This document shows positions 12,586-33,559 of a stretch of 33,559 bases of DNA, one piece after another. Every line of letters begins with the position of its first letter. The first letter of the stretch is position 1. The stretch comes from Gemmatimonadota bacterium (GTDB lineage Bacteria; Latescibacterota; UBA2968; UBA8231). The stretch covers positions 1 to 33,559 of the forward strand of contig PATE01000143.1 of the NCBI GenBank assembly GCA_002712305.1. Reading direction: 5' to 3'. The position numbers were made by a program, and so were the translations under genes. The notes beneath the pieces were generated by a model. It saw only the letters and a list, made by a program, of their open reading frames with translations, did no database searches and was not told the DNA's origin.

Positions 12586-15500
12586 CTATCGCAGGAGCAG
12601 TAGACTCCGTGAGTGTACCAGGCCGCCAGCCTTCAGCTGATAGAAATACAGCCCCGAAGCGACATCACGCCCCTCTTCGTCGAGGCCGCGCCAGACCACT
12701 GCATGGTGTCCGGCAGCGAGCATCTCATCTGCGAACAGCACACGCACGCGCTGGCCCAGGATGTCGAAAATCTCAAGCCGTACGCGACCGTTGTTGCTCA
12801 GATCAAAGGGGATCGTCGTCGTTGGATTGAAGGGATTGGGAAAGTTTCTGCCCAACTGCGTGTGCAGCGGCCGCGAGTCGACCACGCTCACACGCCTGCT
12901 CTGCCCCTGGGCGGTCAGAATCTCCACATCCCGAAGCTGTGCCAGAGACCCGTCCCTTTCAGCCATGCCCAGATTCAGCAGCGGCCCATCTCCAGGGATC
13001 GGTATGGCACCCCGATCCGAAAGCACGAGAGCGACTCTCTGCTGCCCTGCTGGCTCGGGCCAACTGTGCATGTGAGTGTTCATGTCTGCGAAGGGAGTCT
13101 GCTCCAAGGAGACTTCGCTGTGGGCAGGCAGGGCAAGGCTCAACCCAGTGATGGGACCAAGCCCCTCTCCGTGAAGGATCCCCATATCCGATATCCAGAC
13201 ATGCCCTCTTTCGGATGCTGATCTGGCGGCGGGGGTGGTCACCTGCATACCGATGCGCCCAAAATTGTCCGCCAACAGCATGAAATCATCGAAGTCGACG
13301 CGCTCATCCCCGTTGTAGTCGGTCTGACGAGCCACCGTCCACTCGCTGGAGGAAGGGGTCGAGCCATAGTGTCGAACGAGCACACCAAAGTCTGCGAGAT
13401 TCACGTGGTTGTCGTTGTTTCCATCACCTGCAGGCAACAGAGACAGGGCACTCGTGTCGGGCGCGACCCATCGGAAGGTGAGGTGTCTCCGTGATGAGTC
13501 GATGGACACCGTATCACCGACGACGATCCCCTGTAGGTGCGTGGCGACCTTGGCGAATACGCGGTACGTGCCAACCGGGATCTTGTCGAGGTTGAAGCGA
13601 CCTTGATCGTCGAGGCTCACCTGGATCCCCGGCCTCAGTCGATCTTCGTCGTTGATGGCTGACACCAGCGTATCATTCGTGGTTCTGACGAACAGGAGTG
13701 TGGCAAGGTCACCATCGATGGCCGTCGTTCCCCGCTGCTGTACCTGAATCTGCCCACTGACGAACAGGTCACGGACGGACAGCTTCGTCGTGTCACCCAG
13801 TACGGGTTCGATCCAGAGACCACTGCCCTTTTCCACGACGGCACTGCTGCGATTGGTCGTCGGCTCGTCGTCGATGGACAGGAAGGTGGATGCTTCCTTG
13901 CTGGCCAGGAACCACAGTTCAGCCAGCAATACGGGTTCGACAGATGCCGTAAGGGGCGTGGTCCCACCCGGCACGGTGGAGATGAGCGTCAGATCCACTT
14001 TTCCTGTGGAATCAAAGGACCCACTGTGGTAACCGTTGATGGCAGACGTAAAGGACGCTGCCAGGTCCGTCGACACGCGAAATGGCCGCAAAGTGTCCGA
14101 AGGGGATGGGATCAGCGTCATGGCCGTCGGTTCGTACGTCATAAAGACCGACACACCGGCGATGTCGTGCTGTGCAGGCGTGAGATAGACTTGCGCCACG
14201 AGCGTGTCACCCCGGCTGACCCGCGGTGCGTTCGACAGCTTCACATCGATCAGTGGCGCAGGAAGACTGGTGGCACTGGCCGGCGCTGACGGCGCCGATT
14301 GGAGCCCCGCGCGCTCGGCCACGACCTGATAGTAAAACGTGGAATAGGGCGTAGCATCCGGGTCTTCATAGGAAAAGGTCCCTCCCGGAATCACAGCCAG
14401 GGTCTCGGCAACGGCAAAGTCGAGACTCGCCGAACGCAACACGGTGTAGCCGGTGGTGGGTATGATCTGTTGCGCCGGGGGCTGCAGTCCGTAGTCGCCA
14501 TCCTGCCAGGCGACACGAATCCGCCCTCCAAGGTCCCGAGTTACGTCCTCGGCCTGTACGGCCACCGGTGCCCTTGGCGGAACCTGCCGTCCCACGAGGC
14601 GATTGCGCAGCAACTGGAGTCGCCCACTGTCAGCGCTGACGGCGATGATGTCGCCGACGCCATTGGCATCGATATCTGCAACTCGCACCTGTCGAATCGG
14701 GAAACCGATCTCAATGTCTTGCCGTTGGTAGGTCTGGCCGTCCTCGTTCTCGAGGAACACGAGAAAGTCGCCATGTCCACCCGCCACCAGATCGTCGAAG
14801 ATGTCAGCCGTGAGTCCAGCAGCGGCAAGCGCTGACGGCCGCAGACTCGTCGAAGGGGCTGTGAGGGAGGTGAAGGAACCCGTACCGGTGTTGCGCAGGA
14901 TGCTGACGGCGCGTGAGCCGCTGGTGGCCACCGCAATGTCCACATGGCCATCGGCATCTACATCGGCCAGCGAGATCTCTCCAGGGGCAACCCCGACCAG
15001 ATAGTGCACAGCAGCTGAGAATCCGCCATTGCGGTCGTTCAGATAGACACTCACCGTGTTGGCGAGCCGATTGGCGACCACCAGGTCGACATATCCATCG
15101 GCATCGAGATGTCCCGCAGCGACCTGGGCCGCACCGGCCTGGGCCGCTACAACGGCTCTGGCGCTGAAGTTTCCCTGGCCATCGTTGAACAGCAGGGTGA
15201 TGGAGTCCGACGTCGGTCCATTGGCGACCACAATGTCTCGATCTGCATCGGCGTCCAGATCGACGACGACCAGATCCCCAAGGTGGTGACCGATGAAGAT
15301 GTCCTGCCGGCGCCCACTGAACCCGCCCCGACCGTCGTTGGCCAACACCGACAGTGAACGAGCGACGCGATCGCCAATCACGAGATCTGCCGGGCCCGTG
15401 GCACTAAAAATCGGCCCTGCGTCGATCGCGACCGGTTCCGACCAGGCGTGATAGGGAGCGCCATCGTCAGGTAGGATCGTTCGACCAACCTCCGGGAACT

Positions 15501-17887: not shown

Positions 17888-20800
17888 CTAACGCAGCAGT
17901 AGCATCGGGCGCAGGCGGGCACCGCCCGGTTCCTGCACCTGGTAGTAGTAGACGCCGGATCCCAGTCGCAGACCGTCATCGTCGCGACCATCCCACTGGA
18001 TGGCCCACAGACCATCCTGCTGCTGTGATTCGTCGACGAGGAGGCGCACGCGCTGGCCAAGAATGTTGAAAATCTCTACGCGCACTGCGCCGTCGCGAGT
18101 GACCTCGTATTCGATCTGGGTCATCGAGTTAAAGGGGTTCGGATGGTTCGAGAGTCGTTTGGCAGGTCGACGGTTCTCTGGATCCACCTCTCCACGACGA
18201 TACAGCCCCGGTTCACGAAGAGCTGCCGAGATCCAGGCAGAGGCCGTATCCACTGCGGCCGGCACGTCTTCCCAATCGACGTTCATCGGATTCCATCGCT
18301 GCATCCCCTGCATCGGGTCCAGAATGGAACTTCCCGCATACAGACTGAGAACGACCGGTTCGCTGATCTCATCGCCAGCGGCGATATCCAGTTCGTAGAC
18401 TGGGCCACCGCCATCGGCACCGGAGGGAAGATCGGCGGGTGCCATCTGGCGCAGGACGACGATCCGACCTGGCTGTGCGGCAGCATCTGGCACGTTGACG
18501 TTGGCGGCATTGTCAGCACTCAAGGCGCTGCCGCCGTCATTGCCGACGCGACGCAGGGTGATCTCCACTTCCCGGGTCGCTTCGTTGCCGGCAGCATCGG
18601 CTGCACGGACCCCGACAGTCAGACGCTGATCATCTTCGCTGACAGGGATCCGATAGGACACGACCCAACGTCCGGGACCTATGGGTTGGGGCGTTGCCGA
18701 GATGCCATTTAACTGGACTTCCGGTGGCGCACGGAGCTCTTCGTCCGTTGAAAAGTCGATGTCGAGGGCATCGGGTGTCAGGGGATTGCGTCGTGCCTGA
18801 ACCGACACAGTCGGTGCCTCGTCATCCTGCTGAATCAGCACCGTCAGAGGAGCCTCATCGCGATTCCCCTGCGGATCGATGGAAGCGAGAAGAACCCGGC
18901 GAACGCCCTGCTGGTCAGCTGGAACTGAAACCAGGAGTCGACGCCCATCGATGCGCGCCCCGATGCCGGGTTCGGCACTTGCGAGCCAGGTCAGGTCTTC
19001 GATGGGTGTATCCGCGTCACTGACGAACAGATCGAGACTCAGAGACTGCTCAGGAGTACCTGCGATCAGCAGCAACTGTGGCAAATCGGCGATGATCGGT
19101 GGCTCACCTCCTCGCAGCACGGTGATCTCCAGCAGTGCCAGATCGGTGTTGCCAGCCGGGTCTCGAACCAACAGTTGCGCCGTGCGGGGCCCACTGGCGG
19201 TCTCCAGAGGGGTTACGGTGACGATGTGTGTCAGCGAATCGACCTCGACGAGTACGTCAGCAGGCCGACTGACCGACCAGGACAGATTGGAGTCTGCGTC
19301 GTCATCGACTACGAAGTCGTCCAGATCGACATCCGTATTCTCTTCTCCCGCACGCACCAACACGCTCGGTAGTGCACGGATTTGCGGTGCCAGGCCACGT
19401 CCGCGAACGCTGACACGGGCCGACGCCGATCGCGTACGACCCGATGGATCCGAAGCGGTGAAACGCAGCAACTCCGAACCGATGAAGCCAGGACCGAGTG
19501 AGGTCAGATAGACACGGGACGTTGCTGAATCGATGAGGGCCGTCACTTTTACGGGCGCCTCAACCTTCCAGTCGAGACCGACAGTATCGGCCTCGAACTC
19601 AATGAAATCGTTGAGAACGAGCGTCGAATCAGTGCCCCCCGGAAAGATGGTGAGCTCTGGGAGCGCGGTAATGTCGAAGACGGGAGGAAGCATGACATTG
19701 AGAATCTTGCTCTCCCGTTGTCCCCGCGTATCCTCCACCGTCAACAGAAGCAACGCCTCGCTCGGGGGTGGATCGAGGTTCGAATCATCACTGCGTTGCA
19801 ATCGCAATACGTGATTGACCGGGTCGAGAACAGCCTCGACGCCTTCGGCCGGCTCTACGGACCAGAGCAACTCGCTGTCGAAATCTTCGTCATCAAACAC
19901 CAGATCATCGAGGTCGATCCGTCCCATGTCTCCCGTATCCTCAAGAACCACCGAGCTGGGTGTATTCAGGATTGGCTTCCCACCTGGCTCACTCACGAGA
20001 ACGGGAATCGATCGTGTGTGCTGCAAGTCTTGCGGATCGGAGGCGGTCAGTGTCAGAGATCCTATCGTGGCCAGACCGGTCTGCGCCTTGAGGACAACCT
20101 GCCGATTCGTCGAATCCAGTCGTGCTTCCAGTCCCGATGAGGCCGTGACCATCCACTGCAGTTGAGAGACCGGCGTATCGGGATCGTCGACGACCGAATC
20201 CAGAGAGATCACAACCGAATCCACCTCTCCTCCACCCGCGTCCCCACTTACCAGACCGACCTTGGGGATGTCATGGACAAAAGGTGCTGCCGGTTCGTCG
20301 TTGGGCAGAACAATGACAGGCAGCGACGCAGTGTCCTGATGCAGGTCAGGGTCAGTGACGGTCAGCACGATGGCCGAGGGACCGGCGAAGTCGGGTTCTG
20401 AGGGCACCAACAAGGTCTTGCCGGTCACCGATCCACGCAGTTCCTGGGGCCCCACGCCGGTCCAGCTCAACGAGCTGGCGGGAGAATCGTCGGTGGCCTT
20501 GTTGGTCAGGTCGAGGGTGCCTGTGGTACCCTGCAGGAAACGCAAGGGGTTCAATGGGACGATCTGCGGTCCCACATTCTGATCGTCTTCCAACACGATC
20601 GCCACAAGGCGCCCAGCGGCTTCGTGGTCGGCATCGCGTACACCGATGGATACGACGCCTCGGCCAGAGACACTGCCCGTAATGACAAGTTCGGTCTCGT
20701 CCTCGCTGAGGGTGGCGGTCAATCCTCCCTCTCCGAGGAGTTCGATGTTGAGATCCGCCACCGAGTCATCGGCATCGACGATGAGTTCGTCGAGCGGAAT

Positions 20801-22033
20801 CCGTGCCTCGCCACCCGCACCCAGACGTGGGTATACGGGGTCCCTTCTCAAGACCATGGGTGGATCGTTTACGGGAGTGACGATGATCTGCGTCGTCACC
20901 GTGTCACTCAGACCGGTTTCATCAGCCACGACCAGCTGAATCTGCGCGGTACCGAAGCTGTCCGGTTCGGCCGAGAACAGAGCACGTCGCTCATCGTCGA
21001 TGGAGACCTTGGCAAAGGTGCCATTCGTCGCTCGCCAGGTCAGTTCCCCGTCCAGATGGTCAAGATCGGTCACCACGTCGTCGAGTCGGACGAAACCACT
21101 GAAAGAGTCTTCGGCGAACGTAATCGTCGGTGGAAATCCGGCGATACGCGGCGGCGACAGGACCCGGATCGATACGGTGTCCAGATCCTCATTGCCCTCG
21201 GCAACATCAAAGACCGTAAACACGACCTGACGTTCGCCGACAATGCCTTCCGGACGCATGGTGACGTGCCCATTCGCGTCGATGGTTGTGTTGAGTCCAT
21301 CGATGAAGGACGCTGACCAGATCACCTGAGCTCCAATCTGGTCGAGAAACAGGTCTATGTCTTCGAAGATGGTCTGATCCCCGGCGCCCTCCACGACCGT
21401 CATATCGGGCAGGGGTTGGATCTGAAATCCTGTCACGCGCAACGTCATCGAGCCAAGAGGTGACCCGAAGTCCTGTTCGACGCCGGCAGCCACCGATGAT
21501 GTGTAGTGGGACTTTCGATCTCGGCCGACGGCCAGCAGTTCGAGGGCGGTCTCGTCCCCGAGAGGCCTGTGGTTCACATCCAACACGACCGTCGCCGCCA
21601 CGCCTTCCTGGGTGACGACCTGTCGCTGCGTCCCAGACGCTTCAGCGAAGCTCAGTACGACCTGGTCTTCATCGAGATCGAAGCGATTTAGCAGTTCCAC
21701 ATCGAGCAGGTCCCCATCGAGGAAGGGTTTGGCTTCGAGGCCTTCTCCTGCTGCTGGATCGAGAGAAAACACATTCGCGTCATAGGCGAGATAGAAGGCG
21801 TATCCTGTCACCGGATCGGTTCCAGGCGTGATCACGACCTCCACCTGCAGTTTCTCGCCCACTTCGACGGTGCCCGACAGCTCACCATCTGCACGACGCA
21901 GGCTGATTTCGGCAGGGCCATCGATGGTTCCCTGTGTCTGGCCCTGTGCCCCCTGAACGACAAGCAGTGCAAGCACCAGGCTTGCCAGAAGCAGCCGGAA
22001 ACGGGCGAGTGAATTGTCGCGAAGAGTCATCAT
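17888..22033 (-). CDS. Giant secreted protein A: N-terminal cohesin-like domain, nine cadherin/Ig-like repeats, C-terminal sorting domain
   Basis: 1381 residues. The signal peptide (about 1-31) ends VVQGAQG. A cohesin-like domain at about 33-205 shows GTVEVGEKLQVEVVI and YAFYLAYDANVFSL. Nine tandem repeats follow, about 211-1061. Each opens with an acidic phrase such as GFVRLDDVVTDLDHLDGELTW, GRIDLDDLVFDDEDFDSELLW or TDVDLDDFVVDDDADSNLSW. An Ig-like domain (about 1068-1160), a ZU5-like stretch (about 1178-1281) and the T9SS type A/FlgD-Ig-like domain (about 1294-1381, NHPNPFNSMTQIEYE, ending LLLR) complete it. There is no dockerin and no enzyme motif. The start overlaps the upstream protein B stop (ATGATGA), so translation is probably coupled. 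The Asp clusters suggest calcium-stiffened rods. An extracellular structural or adhesive role is inferred. Confidence 0.85.
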   Translation of the reverse strand: MMTLRDNSLARFRLLLASLVLALLVVQGAQGQTQGTIDGPAEISLRRADGELSGTVEVGEKLQVEVVITPGTDPVTGYAFYLAYDANVFSLDPAAGEGLEAKPFLDGDLLDVELLNRFDLDEDQVVLSFAEASGTQRQVVTQEGVAATVVLDVNHRPLGDETALELLAVGRDRKSHYTSSVAAGVEQDFGSPLGSMTLRVTGFQIQPLPDMTVVEGAGDQTIFEDIDLFLDQIGAQVIWSASFIDGLNTTIDANGHVTMRPEGIVGERQVVFTVFDVAEGNEDLDTVSIRVLSPPRIAGFPPTITFAEDSFSGFVRLDDVVTDLDHLDGELTWRATNGTFAKVSIDDERRALFSAEPDSFGTAQIQLVVADETGLSDTVTTQIIVTPVNDPPMVLRRDPVYPRLGAGGEARIPLDELIVDADDSVADLNIELLGEGGLTATLSEDETELVITGSVSGRGVVSIGVRDADHEAAGRLVAIVLEDDQNVGPQIVPLNPLRFLQGTTGTLDLTNKATDDSPASSLSWTGVGPQELRGSVTGKTLLVPSEPDFAGPSAIVLTVTDPDLHQDTASLPVIVLPNDEPAAPFVHDIPKVGLVSGDAGGGEVDSVVISLDSVVDDPDTPVSQLQWMVTASSGLEARLDSTNRQVVLKAQTGLATIGSLTLTASDPQDLQHTRSIPVLVSEPGGKPILNTPSSVVLEDTGDMGRIDLDDLVFDDEDFDSELLWSVEPAEGVEAVLDPVNHVLRLQRSDDSNLDPPPSEALLLLTVEDTRGQRESKILNVMLPPVFDITALPELTIFPGGTDSTLVLNDFIEFEADTVGLDWKVEAPVKVTALIDSATSRVYLTSLGPGFIGSELLRFTASDPSGRTRSASARVSVRGRGLAPQIRALPSVLVRAGEENTDVDLDDFVVDDDADSNLSWSVSRPADVLVEVDSLTHIVTVTPLETASGPRTAQLLVRDPAGNTDLALLEITVLRGGEPPIIADLPQLLLIAGTPEQSLSLDLFVSDADTPIEDLTWLASAEPGIGARIDGRRLLVSVPADQQGVRRVLLASIDPQGNRDEAPLTVLIQQDDEAPTVSVQARRNPLTPDALDIDFSTDEELRAPPEVQLNGISATPQPIGPGRWVVSYRIPVSEDDQRLTVGVRAADAAGNEATREVEITLRRVGNDGGSALSADNAANVNVPDAAAQPGRIVVLRQMAPADLPSGADGGGPVYELDIAAGDEISEPVVLSLYAGSSILDPMQGMQRWNPMNVDWEDVPAAVDTASAWISAALREPGLYRRGEVDPENRRPAKRLSNHPNPFNSMTQIEYEVTRDGAVRVEIFNILGQRVRLLVDESQQQDGLWAIQWDGRDDDGLRLGSGVYYYQVQEPGGARLRPMLLLR
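18850..21400 (-). repeat. Nine tandem cadherin/Ig-like protein repeats in protein A
   Basis: Nine units of roughly 85-100 residues share a core of hydrophobic-L-D-x-[LFV]-V-x-D-x-D followed by an L-x-W strand, then a strand of the type V-x-x-x-x-D. They are divergent from one another, so this is old duplication and not recent slippage. The Asp-rich junctions resemble inter-domain calcium sites of cadherin-like repeats. Confidence 0.7.
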
Positions 22034-25000
22034 TTCAGTAACAGCATCGGCCGGGTCTGTACATTCGACCCCGCCCGCAATTGTGCGAAGTAGACACCAC
22101 TCGATACTCGCTCACCCTTGCTGTCCCGCCCATTCCAGCTGACCCGATGGTGTCCCGCGTGAAGGGGACGACTCACGAGTTGCGTCAGCCGCTGGCCGAG
22201 GACATCGTAGATCCCGAGCTCCACCTGCACGAACTCACCCACTTCCGCATCGATATCAAACTCGATGGTCGTGGCCGGATTGAAGGGGTTGGGATAGTTG
22301 GGACGCAGTCCGAATCGGGCCGGCGCCACAGCAATGTCCTCGATGCCGGTGCGCGGACCGGCCTGGAAGTCGACATCGCGATAGGCGGCATCCAACAACA
22401 GCAGTTGTGTCAGTCTCGGTGCGATCGCGGCAGAATGTCGCGCCACCAGCCGCCAGCGCAGAGGGTCGATGCCGACATCTCCTGCGCCGATACGAGTCAG
22501 TCCCCAGCGCCCGTGATCCGTCTCAAGCCGCTGTGCGAGCAGCGTGGATTCGTTGCCTTCTACGGCCATCAGCCGCCAGTCCTTCTCGTCGAAATCGACA
22601 ACCGCCTCGAAAGCGCGAATTCCGCTCCACGAGGTGGCTTGCAGTGAGGCGACGAGTGTGTCCCCCTCCGCATACGATCTTTCGTCGAAGGAGAATCGGA
22701 TGATCCTGGGAGACCTGGCCACCGAAGCGGTCCGAAACACGGGAACAGGGCCTTTTACGCGGAAATTGTTACCTACGAGGATCAGATCCCGGATGTCTAC
22801 CTGACCGTCACCGGTGATATCTGCCCGAACGCTGTCGTCATCCGGCTCCAGTTGGCGACCAAACAGGGAAGCGAGGAAATCCCAGTCCGCGAGGGTCACT
22901 TCGTTGTCCGGCTGCGACACGCCGTCGACATCGAGGTATCCGGCCACATCGCCACCGAGCAGGAGCGTGTCACCCTCGGTCGTGGTGGGTCGGATGTCTG
23001 TGAGAGCAGCCCCAGGATGCAGTTCCAGCCCGGGCACGTGACCCTCGAGATACCCGTCGATACGAACGTGCAGATCAAGACGACCTTCCGGTGTCTGAGT
23101 CAGCAGGAAAGAGCCATCGGGCTGCAGGCTGACCTGCACGCCAGGACGATCCTCATCCACATCGTTGCTGACAGCGAAGAGACTGTCCTCGATGTCGATG
23201 AATGCCCCCCAATGCCGCCACGCGATATCGACGTTCGCCGTGCGGTCCACACGCCCTTCCAGGGCGATGATCCCATTCACAGTGGCACGGCCGGGCAACA
23301 AACGGGCAGTGGCCAGCGGCTCGGCCGTGGCCAATACGACCACCTGGCCGTCACGCTCCAACTGCGATGGCTGATCGTTTTCGGCATCGCTCAGGATTTG
23401 CAGGTCACTGCTGCCGGAGACGCCATCGTCGTGAATGGCATCCCCAGGGGCGGCCAACACCTCCATCGCCACGAGTGCCCGATCTCCACTCAGTGTGGGA
23501 ATCCCACCGGGTGCCGGATCGAAGTACTCGCACGTCATAAGCAGGCTGCCCTCGGTTTCGGTGGCTCGATTGGTCACCAGCTTCGATGCCTCAAAACCAG
23601 GCTGGATCAGGAAGGGCTGAACTCCCTCTTGATCCAGATCTTGATCGACGACATCGAAAATGTTCGCATCCAGACGCAGGGTGATCAGGACCAGATCGGC
23701 AGTCTCTTCCAGGGCGTCGACGACGATGTCGACTTTCTGAACGCTGCCTTCGGTGCCAATGGTGAAGTTCTCGGGAAGGAGATTGAACACCCGGCGCTGG
23801 GGAATCGTCGCCGGCGCACCAAGAGTCAACGTTCCGGGTGCACGCCATGCACGTGTGTCGGCGCCGAAGGAATCGCTGTCGGTGATCGCCAGATAGACGT
23901 GGTAGGTACCCTGCTGTGGTGCTCCAGGTGTATTCGGGCCTCGTTGCAGGTGGCCGGTGGTCAGATCGAAGGCGTCGGCATCGTCGTTTTCACTCAGATC
24001 CGCGTTTTCGTCGACTCTGGCCAGTGCAAACCCGTCCGTCGAATTGATGACGTATGCCTGACCCGACACAACGGTGGTGTAGTTCGTCGTGTCGCCGTGA
24101 TCGACGGCGCTGAGGATAATACGGAGCCGGGCATCATCGTCGAGATCCATGTCCTGCCAGCTGACCCGGGCGCTCTCGCCGGCCCCCACTGTGATCGCCG
24201 TAGAGGGCTGCAACGGACGCACTGCGGGGGGATGTTCGAATCGAATCGCCGTGGGCGTCGTCGAATCCCCCATCCGAGTCAGGCGCTGGAGATTGCCATC
24301 CGCGATCACGCCATAGACGTAGTAGTCCTGGTCGGCGGCAGGGACGAACGTGCCGGACTCGAGCCCCCACAGATCCCAGACGAACTGATTCGACTGTCGA
24401 TCGTCGGATTCTTCCTGCAGATCGGCGGCGATCAGATGGGCACTCTGAGCGATCGCGCCTGCCCCGCCGGGCGTTTCAACGTCAGGATCGGCACTCAGAT
24501 ACAGTGAGATGGTCGCCTCGTCGTCAGCGTCGAGATCCCCACCGATGCCGCTTTGTCCCCAGCCCAGGGTCAGAAAACGCTGTGGGCGCCACGCACCGGT
24601 CACGATGGGTTCACCTGCAAGCACGTCATCGAGATCATCCAGACGCAGAAACGGCGAGTGTCGGACGAGGACCGGATGGGCCGAGCGATCGATATTCGCC
24701 TGTGATCCGCCCGTGGCCACGAGGTAGATGTAGTAGTCGCCTTCCGGGACCAGGGGTGAGATCGTTCCCCAATCGTAGCGCTGCGTCAGTTCAGGGAGTC
24801 CCGCCGTCGGCGTGATCGCCGTGGCACCGGCCAGTTGTGCCAACTCGCCTTCGAGAGACACATCGGAGGGCCCAAGGTTTGGATCGGCGCTGTAGAACAG
24901 ATGAGCCCTGGCGCTGTCGTCGTGATCGACCACGTTTAGATCGATGACGAGGCGCCGAGGTCCCTCCCCATTGGCGACGCCGGACAGATCCAGCAGACCG

Positions 25001-26088
25001 CCAGAATCAAATACGATGGCATCTTCAGCCGTCGTTCCACCTACCAACGGGCCGAGTTGTTCCACGACGGGCTGATGGCGAACCTGAATGGCTCGACTGC
25101 GACCCAGAGGTGTTCGTCCAGTGACGTCGGAAACCACGTACAACCAGTACGTATCGGCGGGCAGGTCTCTCACCAGAAGCTGGACAGAGCTGCCGACGCC
25201 TTCGGTCTGCTCATAGGCCATCTCGTCGCCGGACAACAGGACGGGCGTGGCCACATCGGGGCCGATCTGAGTCAGGTCTGGTTCGGTGGCGAAGTAGAAC
25301 CGATAGGGTGTGTCGTTGGCATCGTTTCCATCACCCAGCCCTGTCCGGTCGTTTCGATCAGCCTCTCCTCCATCAAAAACCAGATCGGGCAGATCCAGAA
25401 CCAGGATCGTGGCCAGTTCGGGAAAGACCGTGCCACGGGCCGAGGTCAGGGTGTCGGTGTCGCCGGCGAGAGGGGCGGCCAGATCGATGATTCCCATCGA
25501 GCCGGATGCCGCAAGCTCCGTGGCACCGACGAAGTTGATGTTAGGCAGTTGTTCGGTCAGATCCGTCTCAAGCGGATCGGCAAACTCGATGGCCTGATAG
25601 ACGGTAGATGTGGCCGAGAGCGAGGATGACGCTGCCGAACGGGAAGGGAACTGGACATACACCTGTCCACCCGCGGCGGCCCTCGCACGAGATGACAGCA
25701 CGATGGTCTTAGCAGTGGTCTTTGTAGAGGTCTCGAAGCGGGGCAGTTCGGCATCGACGGCTCGGTAGACAATCCGCACCTCATCGAACAGGGCCCCATC
25801 CCCATCGCCATCGTGGAGTTCAAGCAAAGCGGGCAGATCGATGCGAATGGCTTCCGACGAGGCCTCGTCGGCCTGCCCGAGAGTAATGCGCAACTGCTGC
25901 CAGTACAGACCATCCCCCGCGTCCGCCATCGGCACTCGAGACAGAGCAGACGGCTCGAGCGCAGCAGACTGTGCCCCTGCGTCGATGGCGACAAGGAACA
26001 AAACGGTCAAGGCGGCGAACACCCGTCTTGCTGGACTAGCCTTGCCGACAAGGCGGCCAATGGTCTGTGTCAGGACGGGTGGAAACAT
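22030..26088 (-). CDS. Giant secreted protein B: YYxY modules, cohesin-like, carboxypeptidase-regulatory-like, dockerin, C-terminal sorting domain
   Basis: 1352 residues. The signal peptide ends near DAGAQS (about residue 39). Four modules of about 135 residues each end in a phrase such as DTYWLYVVSDVTG, GDYYIYLVATGG, DQDYYVYGVIADG or GTYHVYLAITDSD; I know no family name for them. Then come a cohesin-like domain (about 776-899), a carboxypeptidase-regulatory-like beta-sandwich (about 933-1033), and a dockerin (about 1038-1109) with one loop interrupted. A second cohesin-like sandwich (about 1129-1249) and the C-terminal domain (about 1259-1352, NYPNPFNPATTIEFD, ending LLLK) follow. The ATG at 26088 has GGAAGA about 6 bases upstream. 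The stop overlaps the start of protein A. Paralogous to the gene at 30809 over its whole visible length, with shared phrases VVDQD, GVQPF, GHVP and LLGGDV. Confidence 0.85.
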   Translation of the reverse strand: MFPPVLTQTIGRLVGKASPARRVFAALTVLFLVAIDAGAQSAALEPSALSRVPMADAGDGLYWQQLRITLGQADEASSEAIRIDLPALLELHDGDGDGALFDEVRIVYRAVDAELPRFETSTKTTAKTIVLSSRARAAAGGQVYVQFPSRSAASSSLSATSTVYQAIEFADPLETDLTEQLPNINFVGATELAASGSMGIIDLAAPLAGDTDTLTSARGTVFPELATILVLDLPDLVFDGGEADRNDRTGLGDGNDANDTPYRFYFATEPDLTQIGPDVATPVLLSGDEMAYEQTEGVGSSVQLLVRDLPADTYWLYVVSDVTGRTPLGRSRAIQVRHQPVVEQLGPLVGGTTAEDAIVFDSGGLLDLSGVANGEGPRRLVIDLNVVDHDDSARAHLFYSADPNLGPSDVSLEGELAQLAGATAITPTAGLPELTQRYDWGTISPLVPEGDYYIYLVATGGSQANIDRSAHPVLVRHSPFLRLDDLDDVLAGEPIVTGAWRPQRFLTLGWGQSGIGGDLDADDEATISLYLSADPDVETPGGAGAIAQSAHLIAADLQEESDDRQSNQFVWDLWGLESGTFVPAADQDYYVYGVIADGNLQRLTRMGDSTTPTAIRFEHPPAVRPLQPSTAITVGAGESARVSWQDMDLDDDARLRIILSAVDHGDTTNYTTVVSGQAYVINSTDGFALARVDENADLSENDDADAFDLTTGHLQRGPNTPGAPQQGTYHVYLAITDSDSFGADTRAWRAPGTLTLGAPATIPQRRVFNLLPENFTIGTEGSVQKVDIVVDALEETADLVLITLRLDANIFDVVDQDLDQEGVQPFLIQPGFEASKLVTNRATETEGSLLMTCEYFDPAPGGIPTLSGDRALVAMEVLAAPGDAIHDDGVSGSSDLQILSDAENDQPSQLERDGQVVVLATAEPLATARLLPGRATVNGIIALEGRVDRTANVDIAWRHWGAFIDIEDSLFAVSNDVDEDRPGVQVSLQPDGSFLLTQTPEGRLDLHVRIDGYLEGHVPGLELHPGAALTDIRPTTTEGDTLLLGGDVAGYLDVDGVSQPDNEVTLADWDFLASLFGRQLEPDDDSVRADITGDGQVDIRDLILVGNNFRVKGPVPVFRTASVARSPRIIRFSFDERSYAEGDTLVASLQATSWSGIRAFEAVVDFDEKDWRLMAVEGNESTLLAQRLETDHGRWGLTRIGAGDVGIDPLRWRLVARHSAAIAPRLTQLLLLDAAYRDVDFQAGPRTGIEDIAVAPARFGLRPNYPNPFNPATTIEFDIDAEVGEFVQVELGIYDVLGQRLTQLVSRPLHAGHHRVSWNGRDSKGERVSSGVYFAQLRAGSNVQTRPMLLLK
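22760..22975 (-). other. Dockerin-like module in protein B
   Basis: The second loop is canonical (ADITGDGQVDIRDLILVGNN). The first begins GGDVAGYLDVDG and resumes PDNEVTLADWDFLASLFG, so about a dozen residues interrupt the usual D-x-[ND]-G-D loop. The same interruption occurs in the paralogue at 31515-31725. Confidence 0.7.
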
Positions 26089-26157
26089 TTTTCTTCCGAC
26101 CGCTCAGGCTCTTCCCAGAGAACGCAGCATTTCCGCGCCTTCAGAACGCGCCATTCA

Positions 26158-26178
26158 GGTCGTCACAAGTGGACGACC
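26158..26178 (-). other. Perfect 7-bp inverted repeat in the longest intergenic gap
   Basis: GGTCGTC (26158-26164) pairs with GACGACC (26172-26178) around a 7-base loop, in the 191-base gap 26089-26279 between protein A' and protein B. A second, weaker 5-bp repeat GGTAC/GTACC lies at 26198-26215. Neither is followed by a T run on the minus strand. I saw no convincing promoter and no coding potential in the gap. A terminator or a 5' leader structure for protein B is possible. Confidence 0.35.
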
Positions 26179-26279
26179 CCAGAGGCATTCCTCTTCCGGT
26201 ACGCCGACGGGTACCAGCGGAGCCGGCACCTGTGGTCACTCTGATCAACTTCCATTTGAGCAAACCCCGGGCCACCTCC

Positions 26280-29200
26280 CTATCGAAGCAGCAGCAGCTT
26301 GTGCATGTGAGTTCCGCCGGGGGTCTTTACCTGCAGCAGATACATGCCGCTTGCCACCGGTCGGCCCCCTCTATCCGACCCATCCCAGATCAACGATCCC
26401 ACGCCTCCTGGGTGATCGAACCTCCACTGCCGGACGGGTTGGCCGAGGGGATCATAGACGATCAGCTCGACCAGGCCCGGCAAGGTGGGCGCAAACTGCA
26501 GGGTCACCTGGGCGTTGAAGGGATTCGGAAAGGCGTGCACCGGTGTGAGTGCGCTGGCCTCGCCCTGGGTCTCGGCAAGTCTGTAGACGCCGCTGTCGAA
26601 CACCGTGCCGTAGACACCCGGCGGATTCGACACCTGCCACGACGGCACCGTCACCCAACCATCAGGGCTCAACCACTCCAGGCCGGAGACGCCAGATGAG
26701 CGTGCACCAGGCACGACTTCAGACCGCCCTGTCCGGCCTGCGGCGATCCGATTCGATCCCTCAGCCGTGTGGGTCAGGAAAAGGCCGACCCCGTCGGCGG
26801 CAAGTCGTGGCGACAGGAGCAACTCCACCCCTTCCTCTACCCGCTGCATCAGGAGGCCCCCACCGGAACCCACCGGAATCTCGACCCTCGCCCCTGCATC
26901 TGGGAGGTCGAATCGACCTCCATCTGAACCTCCGATAAGGGACACAATCGATTGCTGCACAACCTTTTGCACATCTTCAATGGACACGGAGACCGCCACG
27001 AGGCTGTGGTGGATTCCCTGTTCGAGTCGCAATTGGACGTGCCCGTCTATCAGTACCACGGGCAGAGCATCGACCGTCACGGAGACATGAGCCGGATCGG
27101 CAGCCTCTACGAACAGATCGAGGCCACTGTCGCTCACCTCCACGTGGATTGTGGGATCGGGGATCGGGCGAATCGCCAGTGGGATCACGATGCTCTGCAC
27201 CTGTCCATTTGGGTCGGTCGCTCGAATCCAAAGGGTCGATGTGGTCAGCGGCTGAATCTGGACCTCGCCTGCCTCGATCCATACATCGCCCTCGCCGCCG
27301 CCCAGAAGTCGGGCCTCCCACGCCATCGACTGAACCCAGGTGGTGTCCAATCCTTCAGCCCCGCCGGTGAAATGGACGAGGTCGAACAGAGACAGTGTCA
27401 TGGTCTGACCTGACCAGTGAGAATCGACAGAAGGCACCGTCAGCCCCCAGATAACACCGTCAGATGGGAGTGGATCAGCAGAGGCGTGTTCGAGGGGATC
27501 GGGCACATCGTTCGATGTGATCCCAAGCAACGCGATGCCAAGGCGGCTGGAGGCAACTTGAAGGCCGCTGGCGAGGCGCGCCTCCAGCAGCAGTTCTCCC
27601 GGCAGGTCTGCCACCACGGTCAGTCGCTGATCGAGACCGTCCCACACGGCGTGGATCCCCGTATCGGCAGCAGCGACAAACCACGTGATCTCCGAATCTT
27701 CGGCAGACGGATCTTGGGATGTCAGTTCGTCGAGAGACAGGCGTGCAGCGATCCCGGCGGCGAGTTCGACCTGCCAGGCAGTCACCTGGATGGATGGCGG
27801 GTCGATACGAACGATGAGATCAACATCCTGGACCCGAGCTGCCGTGATCGCACGAAGTCGCACAACCTGGCGACCCGGTAGGGACGCTCTCGCGTCGACG
27901 ATGAGTATCTGCTGTTCCAGGGAGGCCCCCAGGTGCCCCGCATCGACGAGTTCCCAACGGACCGGACCATCCGCCTGAAGAACAAGAGTTCCCAGGTCGA
28001 GCAGGGCCTGCTGACGCCCTGCGTGCACATGCTGCGCCGAGGGTGTCGCCAACACCAATGTGGGTGGTTCCACGACATGAATCTGGACGGCAAGGCCAAT
28101 CGTCTGCGTCTGAGTAACCGCTTCCAACTGCACATCGAACACCCCGGCCGGCACACTTGCGGCCACCGTCAGGTAGATGAAACCATCGTCCAGAACCGCC
28201 GTGACCCCATCGGGCAGCGCCAGGACGCGCCACAGGGACACATCACCTGCCAGGACCCAAGAGGCAAGATCGAACTCGGCAAATTCACCCGATCCCATGG
28301 TGATCTCATCGGGCACCTCAACCTGGAGGGGCATCGACGCATCTGTTTCGACAATCACACGCAGCAGGCGTTCAGCGTCGCCGGAATCATCGATGACCGT
28401 CAGACGCAGGGCTTCCTCACCGACCCGTCCTTGTCCGGCTTCGATCTGCAGGACATCACCCTCGATGCGCGCCGTCACCAGCGAGGCTGTCCCGATTTGC
28501 CATTGCACCGGCCCGACTGCATCGACTGCAAAACCCGACAGATCGACCTTGATCGAACCTCCCTGCGTCAAACGCACAGGGGGTATATCGCGGATGTGCA
28601 GTTGGGCGACGGGTGCTTCGAGTTCGACATCGATGGTGATGGTCATACGTCGCTGCTCGACGTAGAGGTGGACTGAAATCTGGTCTGTGCCGGCCGATTG
28701 AATGGGCGCTTCCAGGAAAAGGCGTCCATCCTCCACCCGGGTCTTCACCAGGAGTCCATCGTCGGCCACCCAGAGGACATCTTCCATCTGCACACCAGAC
28801 AGATAGTCGTCGAGACGCAGTTCGAGAGCACTCCCGGCCATGAGGCCTAACCGCTCCGGCAAGGTGATTTCGATACTCGACAGGTCGATCTGCGAATTCG
28901 TTGGATTCTCACCGGGGCCAACGGTCTGGGTTCCACCATCCCCCGTCTGATCATCTGACTCATCACCTGGAACATCACTCAGAAGATCATCTATGGGATC
29001 CTGCTCGCCTTGAGGTGTCTGGCCGACCTCGATCCCGGCCTCGTCGACGAGATCGTCCATCGGTAAGCTGGCTGGATCCTCAACATCTGGACCCTCAACC
29101 GCAGGATCACCAGCGCCAGGGTCATCGGCACCAGGCACGTCAACCTGAACCGAGAGTACCGTCGACGATGAATTGCCTTGCTCATCGGTGGCAAGCAGTC

Positions 29201-30773
29201 GGATCCAACCCTCACCCTCCTGTGTCGCCTCTACCCGTAGCCCATCCGCCTCCACCTGCACCTGGACGTTGGCCGAAGACTGAGCCGCCATCTGGAGCCC
29301 TTCCACAACCCCGTCATCCGTCAACAGTTGGCCCCAGGACCAGAACGTCGGCGTGCCCACATGCAAGACCGGCGTTTTCCACGGCTGGAACTGCGGGCCC
29401 TGGCTCTGCCCCGTCACCTGCACCGGCAAAGTCCACTGCCAGGACACGCCCCGTGCGTCGATGGCCTGGAGTCGCACAGCACCGAGACCTGAAGCCAGAC
29501 CGTGAAATCGGAGTCTCGAGTTCACGATCTCAACTGCAACGAGCGAGTCTCCCTCCACCGTGACATGAAAGCTCGTGACCGCATCATCCACGTCCCGCAG
29601 CAAGTCCGACAACTCGGGACCCCAACTGTCTACACCCTCCATCGCCACCAACACCTCGACGACGTCCGTCTGCAGCTGGGGGGCGTCATCGATCGCCTGT
29701 ACCGCTACGGGCACCACGAGCGAATCAACCAGGACCGAGTGCTCGTCGAACAGACGCAGGGTGAGACTGCTGACGCCGGCCCAGTCAGGCTCAGAAGACA
29801 GATGCCAGTCCGCTCCCTCTCGGCTTACGAGAAGACCGGTACCGGCCTGCACCAGCAGATAGGTGTCGGCGGAAACATGGGGTAGAACGGGATTGGGCAG
29901 GTTCACCGCAACATCTTCACTCATGACCACGGGTTTCAGCGCCAGAGAAGGTTCGGCGGGCGCCACTGTCAGGTTGAACACACCTCGCACGATCTCACCG
30001 TGTTCATCGGTTGCTACATAAGCCACAGGCGCGGAGCCGGCCGTCCGAGGCCGAGCCCAAATCTGAAGGTGGCCGTCGACGATCTTGAGCTGTGCGAGAT
30101 GATCTGCCTGGTGGTCGAGTCGCCAAGTGAGTGCCTGAGAGGGGTGAATACGATCGAGGGCCCACGTCCACCTCTGCTGGCTATTCAGATGCAGATCAGC
30201 GAGCGGCACATATCCCTCTGCCGATACGTGCAGGGATACGGGCTGTCCGGTGAGAGCAAAGCGATTCTGACGGCCTGGGTGCCCTTGTTCGGTGAACACC
30301 GGACCATCCGGGCCAGCCGGCACCAGACTGATTCCAGTGGTACTGGCGGCGCCGATCACCTGCCAGCGTGCGCGGGCCAGCAGGTGCTGACCAGCGATCA
30401 CGTCACGGTTTCCCGACTGCTGCGCCGTAACCACTACGAGCCTGGCGCGGGCATCGGATATCGATGCTTGCACCACATCGTTCGTGTAGGTCCCTACCGA
30501 CAATGCCAGGTCGATGGCAAAGGGTTCAGTTCCTTCGTCTGCGTCGCCATCCAATGCCCGCAGCCGTCGCGGGTCATAGAAGAGGGCCAGACCAATCGAG
30601 GTCAGCAGTCGATCCTGGGTATCGACGTGAATCGTCACATCGACCGTGTCCCCAAGGGCAGGGGCATCTGTTGAGGCGGACTCGATCCAGAGGTGCTGAC
30701 CCGAGGTTGCCGAGACCATCAGCAACAGGGCAAGGGTGACCTTGGTCAGGAGAGGATTTTGGTGGCCGTGCAT
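26280..30773 (-). CDS. Giant secreted protein A': N-terminal cohesin-like domain, about ten Ig-like repeats split by an acidic linker, C-terminal sorting domain
   Basis: 1497 residues. The signal peptide (about 1-26) ends MVSATSGQ. A cohesin-like domain (about 27-165) contains LGDTVDVTIHVD and IGLALFYDPRRLRAL. About four beta-sandwich repeats precede a low-complexity Asp/Gly/Pro/Glu linker (about 541-626). About six more repeats follow, with openings such as LELRLDDYLSGVQMEDVLW, IKVDLSGFAVDAVGPVQW and ALLDLGTLVLQADGPVRW. A pre-C-terminal stretch (VEIPVGSGGGLLMQRV) and the C-terminal domain (about 1409-1497, AFPNPFNAQVTLQF, ending LLLLR) resemble those of protein A. The Asp clusters between repeats are much weaker than in A. 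The ATG at 30771-30773 has no good ribosome binding site; the upstream stop is 35 bases away. Structural extracellular role inferred. Confidence 0.84.
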   Translation of the reverse strand: MHGHQNPLLTKVTLALLLMVSATSGQHLWIESASTDAPALGDTVDVTIHVDTQDRLLTSIGLALFYDPRRLRALDGDADEGTEPFAIDLALSVGTYTNDVVQASISDARARLVVVTAQQSGNRDVIAGQHLLARARWQVIGAASTTGISLVPAGPDGPVFTEQGHPGRQNRFALTGQPVSLHVSAEGYVPLADLHLNSQQRWTWALDRIHPSQALTWRLDHQADHLAQLKIVDGHLQIWARPRTAGSAPVAYVATDEHGEIVRGVFNLTVAPAEPSLALKPVVMSEDVAVNLPNPVLPHVSADTYLLVQAGTGLLVSREGADWHLSSEPDWAGVSSLTLRLFDEHSVLVDSLVVPVAVQAIDDAPQLQTDVVEVLVAMEGVDSWGPELSDLLRDVDDAVTSFHVTVEGDSLVAVEIVNSRLRFHGLASGLGAVRLQAIDARGVSWQWTLPVQVTGQSQGPQFQPWKTPVLHVGTPTFWSWGQLLTDDGVVEGLQMAAQSSANVQVQVEADGLRVEATQEGEGWIRLLATDEQGNSSSTVLSVQVDVPGADDPGAGDPAVEGPDVEDPASLPMDDLVDEAGIEVGQTPQGEQDPIDDLLSDVPGDESDDQTGDGGTQTVGPGENPTNSQIDLSSIEITLPERLGLMAGSALELRLDDYLSGVQMEDVLWVADDGLLVKTRVEDGRLFLEAPIQSAGTDQISVHLYVEQRRMTITIDVELEAPVAQLHIRDIPPVRLTQGGSIKVDLSGFAVDAVGPVQWQIGTASLVTARIEGDVLQIEAGQGRVGEEALRLTVIDDSGDAERLLRVIVETDASMPLQVEVPDEITMGSGEFAEFDLASWVLAGDVSLWRVLALPDGVTAVLDDGFIYLTVAASVPAGVFDVQLEAVTQTQTIGLAVQIHVVEPPTLVLATPSAQHVHAGRQQALLDLGTLVLQADGPVRWELVDAGHLGASLEQQILIVDARASLPGRQVVRLRAITAARVQDVDLIVRIDPPSIQVTAWQVELAAGIAARLSLDELTSQDPSAEDSEITWFVAAADTGIHAVWDGLDQRLTVVADLPGELLLEARLASGLQVASSRLGIALLGITSNDVPDPLEHASADPLPSDGVIWGLTVPSVDSHWSGQTMTLSLFDLVHFTGGAEGLDTTWVQSMAWEARLLGGGEGDVWIEAGEVQIQPLTTSTLWIRATDPNGQVQSIVIPLAIRPIPDPTIHVEVSDSGLDLFVEAADPAHVSVTVDALPVVLIDGHVQLRLEQGIHHSLVAVSVSIEDVQKVVQQSIVSLIGGSDGGRFDLPDAGARVEIPVGSGGGLLMQRVEEGVELLLSPRLAADGVGLFLTHTAEGSNRIAAGRTGRSEVVPGARSSGVSGLEWLSPDGWVTVPSWQVSNPPGVYGTVFDSGVYRLAETQGEASALTPVHAFPNPFNAQVTLQFAPTLPGLVELIVYDPLGQPVRQWRFDHPGGVGSLIWDGSDRGGRPVASGMYLLQVKTPGGTHMHKLLLLR
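28895..29150 (-). other. Acidic low-complexity linker in protein A'
   Basis: About 85 residues rich in Asp, Gly, Pro, Glu and Ser (GADDPGAGDPAVEGPDVEDP, DDLLSDVPGDESDDQTGD). It separates two blocks of Ig-like repeats and is probably disordered or calcium-binding. Protein A has no counterpart. Confidence 0.7.
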
Positions 30774-30808
30774 GATAGATCGGCCCAGGTCTCGGGTCAG
30801 AACTCTGG

Positions 30809-33559
30809 TCAGCGGAGCAGGAGCATCTTGCGCTCAGCCTGCCAGCCACGACCCGTGAGACGCGCGAAGTAGGTTCCCGAAGCGACCTGACGGCCGGCGG
30901 CGTCTCTCCCGTCCCAGTAGACGGTGTGGATTCCGGCGGGCATACTCGAACGCAACAGGGTCCGGATCGCTTGCCCCGTGGCATCGTAGACGGTGAGGCG
31001 AATGGAATCGGGGGCGCGCAGTTCGAGTCGCAGTGCCGTCCGCGGGTTGAACGGATTGGGATAGTTTTGTCCAAGAGCGAATCGCTCAGGCGTCGCCAGC
31101 ACACCCCACGTGCCGGCCTGCCCTTGATGCGAGCGGTCGACCAGATCAGCCCGCAGGAGCCTCACGCTCTGCGCCTCCGCCGACGGGGCCATCGGTTCGA
31201 AGAGCAACTCGGCCAGACCGCCCGTATCACTGACCGGTCCCGCATCGCCTCGGTGAGCGGCGCCCAGATCGACAAGACCCTCCCCTTCACGGAAGGCATG
31301 GATCGCCTCCAGAGGAGACACCCATTCGCCGGGCACATGGCCCCGAAGTCGCCATTGAGAAGGGTCGAATGCCAGTCGCAGTCCGTAGGCCCTGGTATCG
31401 GCGAGGCCTTCACCACCTATGCGAACCAGCAAATTGCCGTTCGGTTGCACATGACGCTGCACGTCGATTGCGGGAGGCACATCATTGATCGGACGGTAGG
31501 AGGGCTCGACACCTCGGATACCGAAATTGGCGGCCACCATGTTCAGATCTTCAACCCACACGAGGCTGTCGCCGTCTACATCGGCCAGAGCCCCAGCGTG
31601 TGCGGGACTTGTGGTCACGCCGAAGTACGTGATCACGAAATCGACATCGAGCTGGTCGATCTCATTGTCAGGACTCGAGGTATTGGACGTATCTACCCAA
31701 CCGGTGACATCGCCACCGAGTAGATACTGTGCCTGTGAGACCCCATCTCTGAGCACCGTGGGTTGCAGACCGGTGATCTGATCACCTGGGTTTACCTGCA
31801 CCGACGGCACGTGGCCGTCGAGGTACCGGTCAACGTGGACTGCAAGGTGGTAGTTCCCCGTGGGCACGCTAGTGAGTGTGAAGGTGCCCTGAGCATCGAC
31901 GGAGTCCTGTATTCCGGCCTTAGTGCTATTCACGTCGTTGACGGCTTCAAACAGTGAATCAGAGACGGTGGTGAACCCATTATTTTCGCGCAGCATGAGG
32001 GTCACTTCTTCCGCGTGATTGGTCCTACCCTGAAGTTGCACCAGTCCGGCGAGGGTTCCGCGCGGCAGGAAGTCGACAACCGCACCGGTCTCGGGGGCCA
32101 GAGACCCCATTTCGATTCCATTGCGATAGAACGCCGAACGACGCTGCTCAATATTGTCAACGCGAACTTGCGCAGTCCCTTCCACATTGCGCGAAGCCAA
32201 TGTGATCGTTGCCAGAGGCTCGGTTCCGTCAAAGGTGCGCCCGCTCTGTTCGAAATACACCAGGTCCATCACCCACCGACCCGCCAGCGATGAATCGGTA
32301 GCGACCTTCACCGAGTCGTAGAGGGTCTGACCCGCAAGGGCAGAGGACACGGCGAAGGGCTGTACCCCCGCCGTCGTCGCATCCTGATCCACCACCGTCG
32401 TCACCAGCGTATCCACGCTGATGAACACCGACACGACGTCGACGGTTTCCCCATCGGTATGAGGATGGATGGCAAAGGTAGTCGTGTCACGCCAGGCCTC
32501 CATCGTCCGTCGAGCTGGCAGGATTTCGATCGCTGAGCGCACCAGCCCCACGGCGCCCGTGGGCAGTCCGTCCACCGTCAGTCTGCCCGGAACGCGCTGC
32601 ACGAGACTGGATGGGCCGGGTTCATCGGTGCCAGCGCCAGGATCCAACACGACGTAGGCGTGATACTCGCCGTCGCTCAGAGGAATCGCCTGGCCGTCGA
32701 AGGTCTGGATCATCCGTGAGGGTCGAGCGTCGAACCGCACGGTCGTGTTCTCGCTGACAGGTGCTCCCGAGGCCAACGACCCGTCGGTGGAGGTCAGGAC
32801 CCAGAGACTGTCACCCGCGGCAGCCTGCAGTTGACTCCAGCTCAGTTCGGATGCGGTGGCCTGGGCCGTGAGGGCGGGGATCATCACCACCCAGATCAAG
32901 GCGTCGTCATCGACGTCCCTGGCTTCCCAGGACACTTCGAAGCTGCGTCGGCCGTCGACGGCAACCAGTGCCATCGGTGCAAGAATCGTCAGATGAGGTT
33001 CGTGTTCGAAGGACAGGGTTCGCAGGGTCCCCGTGCCGTCTTCCCAGCGGACGAGTCTCTCTGTCCCCCCGCCGGTGATGACGCCGTACAGGTAGTAGGG
33101 CGTGTTCTCCAGGGGAACTCCCCCATCATCCGGGTTTGTATAGGCCCACAGATCCCAGGCGTACTGGTTGTCTGCCTGAACCCCATCCGTGGCGCTGAGC
33201 GAATCGACGATCTCGTGCGTATCGAGTGCTGAATTCGCCGCCGCCGACTCAATGGCACTGACCCCATTGGGAATGGCGAATGTGGAATCGGCGGAGTAGT
33301 ACAGGTCGATCAGCGCCGTGTCGTCGCGATCGAAGTCCCCGTCGAGACCAGCGTCCTGATTCCACGTAATCGTGTGAAACCTCGCCGGCATGGCTCCGCC
33401 TGTGGCGATCACCGTGTCCAGGCGCACGTCGAACACCAATAGGGGTGAATGTCGCACCCGGTACGTCGTATCGCTTCGCGTCAACGACAGGGTCGTTCCA
33501 TCGGTGATGACAGCATAGATGAAGTAGTCCCCCGCGGGGACGACAGAACTGTCGTCGGG
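30809..33559 (-). CDS. Giant secreted protein B' (5' end outside window): YYxY modules, cohesin-like, carboxypeptidase-regulatory-like, dockerin, C-terminal sorting domain
   Basis: The frame is open from the window edge; 916 codons are visible and the true start lies upstream. A TTG at 33484 is only an internal codon, because the 25 codons before it continue a conserved module (PAGDYFIYAVITDG). Three YYxY modules are visible (DYFIYAVITDG, TPYYLYGVITGG, GEYHAYVVLDPG). A cohesin-like domain (about 32530-32140) and a carboxypeptidase-regulatory-like domain (about 32065-31770) follow. Then come a dockerin (about 31725-31515), a second cohesin-like sandwich and the C-terminal domain (NYPNPFNPRTALRLE, ending LLLR). 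It is a clear paralogue of the gene at 22030-26088. No catalytic domain is seen. An extracellular scaffold component is inferred. Confidence 0.84.
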   Translation of the reverse strand, partial: PDDSSVVPAGDYFIYAVITDGTTLSLTRSDTTYRVRHSPLLVFDVRLDTVIATGGAMPARFHTITWNQDAGLDGDFDRDDTALIDLYYSADSTFAIPNGVSAIESAAANSALDTHEIVDSLSATDGVQADNQYAWDLWAYTNPDDGGVPLENTPYYLYGVITGGGTERLVRWEDGTGTLRTLSFEHEPHLTILAPMALVAVDGRRSFEVSWEARDVDDDALIWVVMIPALTAQATASELSWSQLQAAAGDSLWVLTSTDGSLASGAPVSENTTVRFDARPSRMIQTFDGQAIPLSDGEYHAYVVLDPGAGTDEPGPSSLVQRVPGRLTVDGLPTGAVGLVRSAIEILPARRTMEAWRDTTTFAIHPHTDGETVDVVSVFISVDTLVTTVVDQDATTAGVQPFAVSSALAGQTLYDSVKVATDSSLAGRWVMDLVYFEQSGRTFDGTEPLATITLASRNVEGTAQVRVDNIEQRRSAFYRNGIEMGSLAPETGAVVDFLPRGTLAGLVQLQGRTNHAEEVTLMLRENNGFTTVSDSLFEAVNDVNSTKAGIQDSVDAQGTFTLTSVPTGNYHLAVHVDRYLDGHVPSVQVNPGDQITGLQPTVLRDGVSQAQYLLGGDVTGWVDTSNTSSPDNEIDQLDVDFVITYFGVTTSPAHAGALADVDGDSLVWVEDLNMVAANFGIRGVEPSYRPINDVPPAIDVQRHVQPNGNLLVRIGGEGLADTRAYGLRLAFDPSQWRLRGHVPGEWVSPLEAIHAFREGEGLVDLGAAHRGDAGPVSDTGGLAELLFEPMAPSAEAQSVRLLRADLVDRSHQGQAGTWGVLATPERFALGQNYPNPFNPRTALRLELRAPDSIRLTVYDATGQAIRTLLRSSMPAGIHTVYWDGRDAAGRQVASGTYFARLTGRGWQAERKMLLLR
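31515..31725 (-). other. Dockerin-like module in protein B'
   Basis: The second loop LADVDGDSLVWVEDLNMVAA has Asp at the expected calcium positions. The first loop starts GGDVTGWVDTSNTSS and resumes PDNEIDQLDVDF, with the same type of interruption as the module in protein B. Confidence 0.68.

Follow-up and report, generated by a model that had tools for sequence, protein, structure and literature searches.

Paired giant cohesin and dockerin genes in a Latescibacterota genome: a candidate enzyme-free surface assembly exported by type IX secretion

Our analysis of contig C143 (PATE01000143.1, positions 1-33,559), which as a whole constitutes the window of 33,559 nucleotides examined here, revealed a series of giant genes in which proteins headed by a cohesin (type A) alternate with proteins bearing an X-dockerin between two cohesin-like domains (type B), all of them ending in a sorting domain of the type IX secretion system (T9SS). 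The coupling of such modules resembles that found in cellulose-digesting clostridia but is enzyme-free, and may therefore build a surface fibre or layer. The reading that we favour, and to which we give about even chances, is that of a T9SS-exported surface assembly in which the X-dockerin of B docks on the cohesin at the tip of A.

The host genome (4.77 Mb, ~91% complete) has as nearest named relatives metagenome genomes labelled Latescibacterota, Handelsmanbacteria, Gemmatimonadetes or Gemmatimonadaceae. The initial annotation had described four genes alternating between the two types, followed by a fifth one, and the five open reading frames were confirmed, all on the minus strand as are the features within them: B1 (30809..33559), A1 (26280..30773), B2 (22030..26088), A2 (17888..22033) and the fifth gene, here called F (12586..17877). 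The 5' end of B1 is missing because the contig stops there. Hardly any space separates B2, A2 and F: the start of A2 overlaps the stop of B2 by 4 nt and the ATG of F lies 10 nt past the stop of A2. B1 and A1 are separated by 35 nt and A1 and B2 by 191 nt, a gap in which promoter and terminator scans found nothing. Elsewhere on the contig, a single protein (7574-10417) combines Peptidase_MA-like, TolB/PD40 propeller and Omp85-like regions. In relatives, a large gene is placed divergent to B1 (L045:13279-17439, L047:9420-13315, L049:9300-13418, L051:4461-8054, L056:7327-11121), a position that in this genome lies beyond the end of contig C143; this gene carried an NHL propeller and Big_9/cadherin repeats in the one copy scanned, and in L045 and L056 its neighbours include HlyD and AcrB genes.

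Both A proteins consist of a signal peptide, an N-terminal domain, a long array of repeats and a T9SS sorting domain. The N-terminal domain, previously taken for a cohesin, is one by both fold and profile match. When scanned alone, that of A2 (21395..21919) scored 27.2 bits against the Pfam Cohesin cut-off of 24.1, the single-sequence scan of the full protein reaching Cohesin only at E 1e-4. A profile constructed from 15 A domains matched 21 PDB chains (best E 7e-7), nearly all of them scaffoldin cohesins or the NagJ cohesin, and its best matches were the type II cohesin dyad of an adaptor scaffoldin (3l8q) and SdbA-type cohesins. In an AlphaFold2 model of A2 residues 30–640 (mean pLDDT 79), the first domain matched a cohesin with Z 13.7, and the modelled first part of the tandem cadherin/Ig-like repeats that follow (18809..21376, Pfam Big_9) resembled cadherins, Ig proteins and the S-layer proteins SbsB, SbsC and Sap in fold comparison. 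The cohesins of A1 are very divergent; the one in this genome (30189..30698) was matched by the A-cohesin profile with E 1e-46.

Type B had been annotated simply as dockerin-bearing. The dockerin stands, but the B proteins also have two cohesin-like domains, here called coh1 and coh2, which flank the X-dockerin and may correspond to the several cohesins of scaffoldins. After a region of repeats, almost all B proteins have the order coh1–CnaB–dockerin–coh2–sorting domain, with one match lacking in a few that are fragmentary or divergent. In B1 these modules occupy 32087..32530 (coh1), 31739..32083 (CnaB or CarboxypepD_reg-like fold), 31502..31729 (dockerin) and 31106..31501 (coh2), and in B2, which is complete and has the same layout, 23317..23787, 22969..23313, 22741..22965 and 22360..22740, respectively. 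Single-sequence Pfam scans gave Dockerin_1 at 0.04, below the cut-off, in B1 and not at all in B2, whose dockerin was delimited by loop alignment and the family profile. This profile matched the type II X-dockerins of CipA and ScaA (E 4e-5), and eleven positions, G6, D7, G10, D21, N22, D28, A49, D50, D54, D61 and L62, are invariant across 14 B proteins. The two calcium-loop repeats together with the profile match thus identify dockerins in B as in F, in agreement with the initial assignments.

The two cohesin-like domains of B were recognised by different means. The family profile of coh2 matched NagJ and type II cohesins in the PDB (E about 2e-3), and coh2 exceeds the Pfam Cohesin cut-off in two relatives (G048, G052); the coh2 of B2 was found by family profile and HMM. 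On the other hand, the coh1 profile alone matched no cohesin among PDB sequences, and coh1, located by HMM in both proteins, was identified as cohesin-like by fold comparison of the B1 model (Z ~14, residues ~16–175). The AlphaFold2 model of B1 residues 326–830 (mean pLDDT 76) had as best PDB match the Coh9–X–DocII portion of CipA (3kcp, 4fl4; Foldseek E 9e-13), and its alignment with 3kcp covered the whole Coh-X-Doc order, with Z 13.5 over 276 residues and an rmsd of 6.8, a value that reflects the superposition of several domains. The CnaB-like module thus stands where CipA has its X module. In addition, the A-cohesin and B-dockerin profiles independently matched the partner chains of the same complexes (2b59 A/B, 3kcp B/A, 4u3s A/B, 4wi0 A/B, 2y3n A/B). 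The position of X before the dockerin and the profile matches of both partners point to a putative type II cohesin/X-dockerin pair, while the fold matches of the B1 and A2 models to cohesin complexes indicate likeness and are no proof of binding.

The F protein combines a BNR propeller, HYDIN-type Ig domains, an FG-GAP propeller, a partial cohesin-like domain, a CnaB-like module, a dockerin and a T9SS sorting domain. The cohesin-like and dockerin modules had been noticed before, and the dockerin (13243..13422), with two canonical loops, is the only one of the five proteins to exceed the Pfam Dockerin_1 cut-off (23.9 versus 22.9); no coh2 was recognised in F by HMM. The C-terminal type A sorting domain, which the initial annotation had not noted, was above the NCBIfam cut-off (TIGR04183) in all five proteins, as in B1 (30812..31063, 25.1 bits against a cut-off of 23) and B2 (22033..22296, 27.9 bits). 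Hydrophobic N-termini were seen by eye in A1, A2, B2 and F, that of B1 being missing. Sorting domains and signal peptides together mark these proteins as probable T9SS cargo, and the genome encodes secretion machinery, with SprA (E 1.5e-38) and five PorV-family genes above cut-off. The sorting motif was not seen in several A3 proteins.

In the family of the host, four arrangements recur: B1–A1; B2–A2–F; A3 with a divergently oriented pair of B3 genes; and B4–A4, after which several genomes have a TPR protein and a protein of about 490 aa. Two further classes, x and y, were found in other parts of the phylum. A TPR protein and a protein of about 460-500 aa, beta-barrel-like by eye, were found after A in classes 4 and y (L089:13758-15982, L085:6580-8775, L099:4108-6170, L063:17234-19305). 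A curli-like exporter was considered for the protein of about 490 aa and rejected, as it had no PDB match and the CsgG and LptE hints in relatives were sub-threshold. In maximum-likelihood trees, for A as for B, classes 1, 2, 3, 4, x and y each form one clade. The order of classes in these unrooted trees is compatible: besides 1 and 2 there is a group in which 3 and 4 stand together, joined by y and then x, with bootstrap values of 83–100 at the deeper forks. Since the class trees are compatible, the A and B genes were most likely passed on together, as pairs, in the course of several duplications; class-mean identities of dockerins versus cohesins gave no clear co-evolution signal beyond the trees. 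The initial annotation had viewed the two cassettes as a duplication. B1 and B2 show 31% identity over about 950 aa, while A1 and A2 have in common only the C-terminus and weak repeats and yield no full-length alignment. These divergences, as well as the six classes forming clades of compatible order in both trees, indicate that the duplication is ancient. A recent tandem event was rejected, given that B1 and B2 have orthologues in several genera and that A1 and A2 cannot be aligned over their full length. Dockerins of classes 1, 2, x and y have 10 extra residues inserted in the first loop, which in classes 3 and 4 and in F has the canonical form.

Co-occurrence of the two types in relatives, which had been suggested as a check on their association, was borne out. 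Of 64 genomes of the phylum, 21 have B-type genes and 23 have A-type cohesins (20 genomes with both, 1 with B only, 3 with A only and 40 with neither). The A profile was built partly from A genes first found beside B, though the search itself covered whole genomes. Treating genomes as independent despite their common ancestry, Fisher's test gave 1.8e-12. The two types also adjoin: a B dockerin lies within 6 kb, upstream of A, for 36 of the 46 A-type cohesins. Seven of the other ten are at a contig edge, one (G004:C81) follows the remnant, namely the coh2 tail, of a B gene split at a contig edge, and two (G011:C292 and G001:C95) have readable surroundings and no B. The distribution is patchy, the same genus including genomes with both types and genomes with neither, among the latter the single-contig G018 and G024. 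Pfam Dockerin_1 had matches in 61 of the 64 genomes, many of them without the A/B cassette; in other families, G026-G034, G037 and G039, as well as G038, G040 and G041, had about 20-53 matches each and no cassette. Hence dockerins in general are not tied to A, but the B class is. Some cohesin-like ORFs stand alone, away from B-type dockerins (G001:C95:23735-24226, G009:C269, G005:C455, G005:C91); they measure about 210-225 aa and are possibly free cohesin proteins.

As had been stated at the outset, no glycoside hydrolase or carbohydrate-binding family exceeded the Pfam or NCBIfam cut-offs in the five proteins. Genome-wide, the B dockerin profile found six dockerins at three loci, namely B1, B2 and F on C143, two B3 genes on C139 and B4 on C2, with a strong A-type cohesin at each locus, and the independent Pfam Dockerin_1 model found nothing outside those loci in the same genome. 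A recognised enzyme domain was present in none of the six dockerin proteins of this ~91% complete genome. Two features of cellulosomes, dockerin-bearing enzymes and a CBM on the scaffold, are therefore absent here, the latter as judged by Pfam in A, B and F.

In the assembly that we propose, which takes up the docking of B dockerins on A cohesins suggested in the initial annotation, A would act as a stalk, its C-terminus either anchored or released and its type II-like cohesin displayed at the outer tip of the cadherin/Ig-like repeats; in the likeliest use, A would be held at the surface by its C-terminus and docking would proceed serially. The X-dockerin of B might then dock on the A cohesin in a calcium-dependent manner, as the X-DocII of CipA does on an anchoring type II cohesin, leaving the B repeats to point onward from the A tip and extend the stalk or a lattice. 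The two cohesin-like domains of B would stay free for the dockerin of F or for further B proteins, giving what could be an arm, a fibre or a lattice of protein on which B repeats and F propellers are displayed. Two features complicate this picture: B has its own cohesin-like domains beside the dockerin, so that A is not the sole possible partner, and both partners have sorting domains, so that B, too, may be anchored and the geometry less straightforward. Binding of A to B, its calcium dependence, this geometry and a use as adhesin or matrix are what we infer for the system. A more tentative extension, which we regard as rather doubtful, is that each A-B cassette has its own lock and key, as the initial annotation had suggested, and that one cell builds up to four or more separate T9SS-exported fibres or layers.

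The main rival to the docking of B on A is that B proteins dock within themselves or on one another, given that almost all of them have cohesin-like domains on either side of the dockerin. The B dockerin would then bind coh1 or coh2 of its own or of the next B, giving a locked C-terminal unit or a B polymer, and A would be a separate adhesin of the same operon. The Pfam-level cohesin matches of coh2 in orthologues fit this possibility, as do the one genome with a B match and no A match (G059) and the presence in F of a cohesin-like domain and a dockerin with no recognised coh2. We nevertheless think it somewhat improbable, for it leaves unexplained why A cohesins have been kept beside B dockerins through several duplications, and why the clear type II cohesin matches come from the A N-terminus and not from B coh1. 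The modules might instead be purely structural, that is, beta-sandwich and calcium-folded spacers within large T9SS cargo that never dock. Their divergence, with most of them below Pfam cut-offs, the insertion in the first calcium loop of four classes and the abundance of Dockerin_1 in cassette-free genomes are in line with such a role, which we hold to be unlikely in view of the invariant loop residues, the adjacency and co-occurrence of A and B, and the X-like module that precedes the dockerin as in type II scaffoldins. A cellulosome-like degradative complex, with enzymes encoded elsewhere docking onto the B cohesins, seems very improbable: an enzyme-bearing, type IX-linked cohesin/dockerin system has been proposed in Ca. 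Stygibacter (PMC8542988), but in the present genome neither of two dockerin models detects a dockerin outside the B, B-like and F proteins, and these have no recognised enzyme domain.

Should B dock on A as we propose, cohesin–dockerin coupling would be used as structural glue in a diderm candidate phylum, providing a new set of possibly orthogonal cohesin–dockerin pairs and suggesting a role for the giant surface proteins of these genomes, which are largely without Pfam annotation. Cohesin–dockerin pairs build cellulosomes in Clostridia, and it is mostly in enzyme complexes that these bonds have been studied. They are among the strongest protein pairs known, and rupture forces have been quoted (PMC6030884). 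The C-terminus of Clostridium thermocellum CipA (3kcp, 4fl4, 2b59) is like B in its cohesin-X-dockerin order, and the corresponding type II cohesin belongs to a separate surface protein, as does the type II-like cohesin of A. Compared with CipA, B is without enzymes or CBM; it also differs by its T9SS sorting domain, by a further cohesin behind the dockerin and by the insertion in the first dockerin loop. Cohesin and dockerin modules outside cellulosomes have reportedly been reviewed by Peer et al. in 2009, as cited in other papers; the arrangement found here is a dedicated, conserved and co-duplicated two-gene cassette.

The nearest published case that we found is the enzyme-bearing, cellulosome-like complex of Ca. 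Stygibacter (Cloacimonadota), in which dockerins are borne by GH18, GH57 and peptidases and a single scaffoldin holds tandem cohesins and CBMs (PMC8542988). Both systems comprise cohesin/dockerin proteins with a C-terminal sorting domain in a diderm bacterium, but here the genes are giant, paired and enzyme-free. Giant ORFs of Omnitrophota contain noncellulosomal dockerins and have been proposed as adhesins, although the relevant part of that paper describes no paired cohesin gene (PMC10066038). The TMEM132 cell-adhesion proteins, like A, place a cohesin before tandem Ig-like domains on a surface protein, but they are animal proteins and have no detectable dockerin partner (PMC6030884). A limited literature search for cohesins, dockerins or type IX secretion in Latescibacteria returned nothing relevant, and neither cohesins nor dockerins are mentioned in the paper on the WS3 genome. 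Overall, cohesins and dockerins outside cellulosomes form a known kind, and what is new in the present case is an enzyme-free, co-duplicated pair of giant genes.
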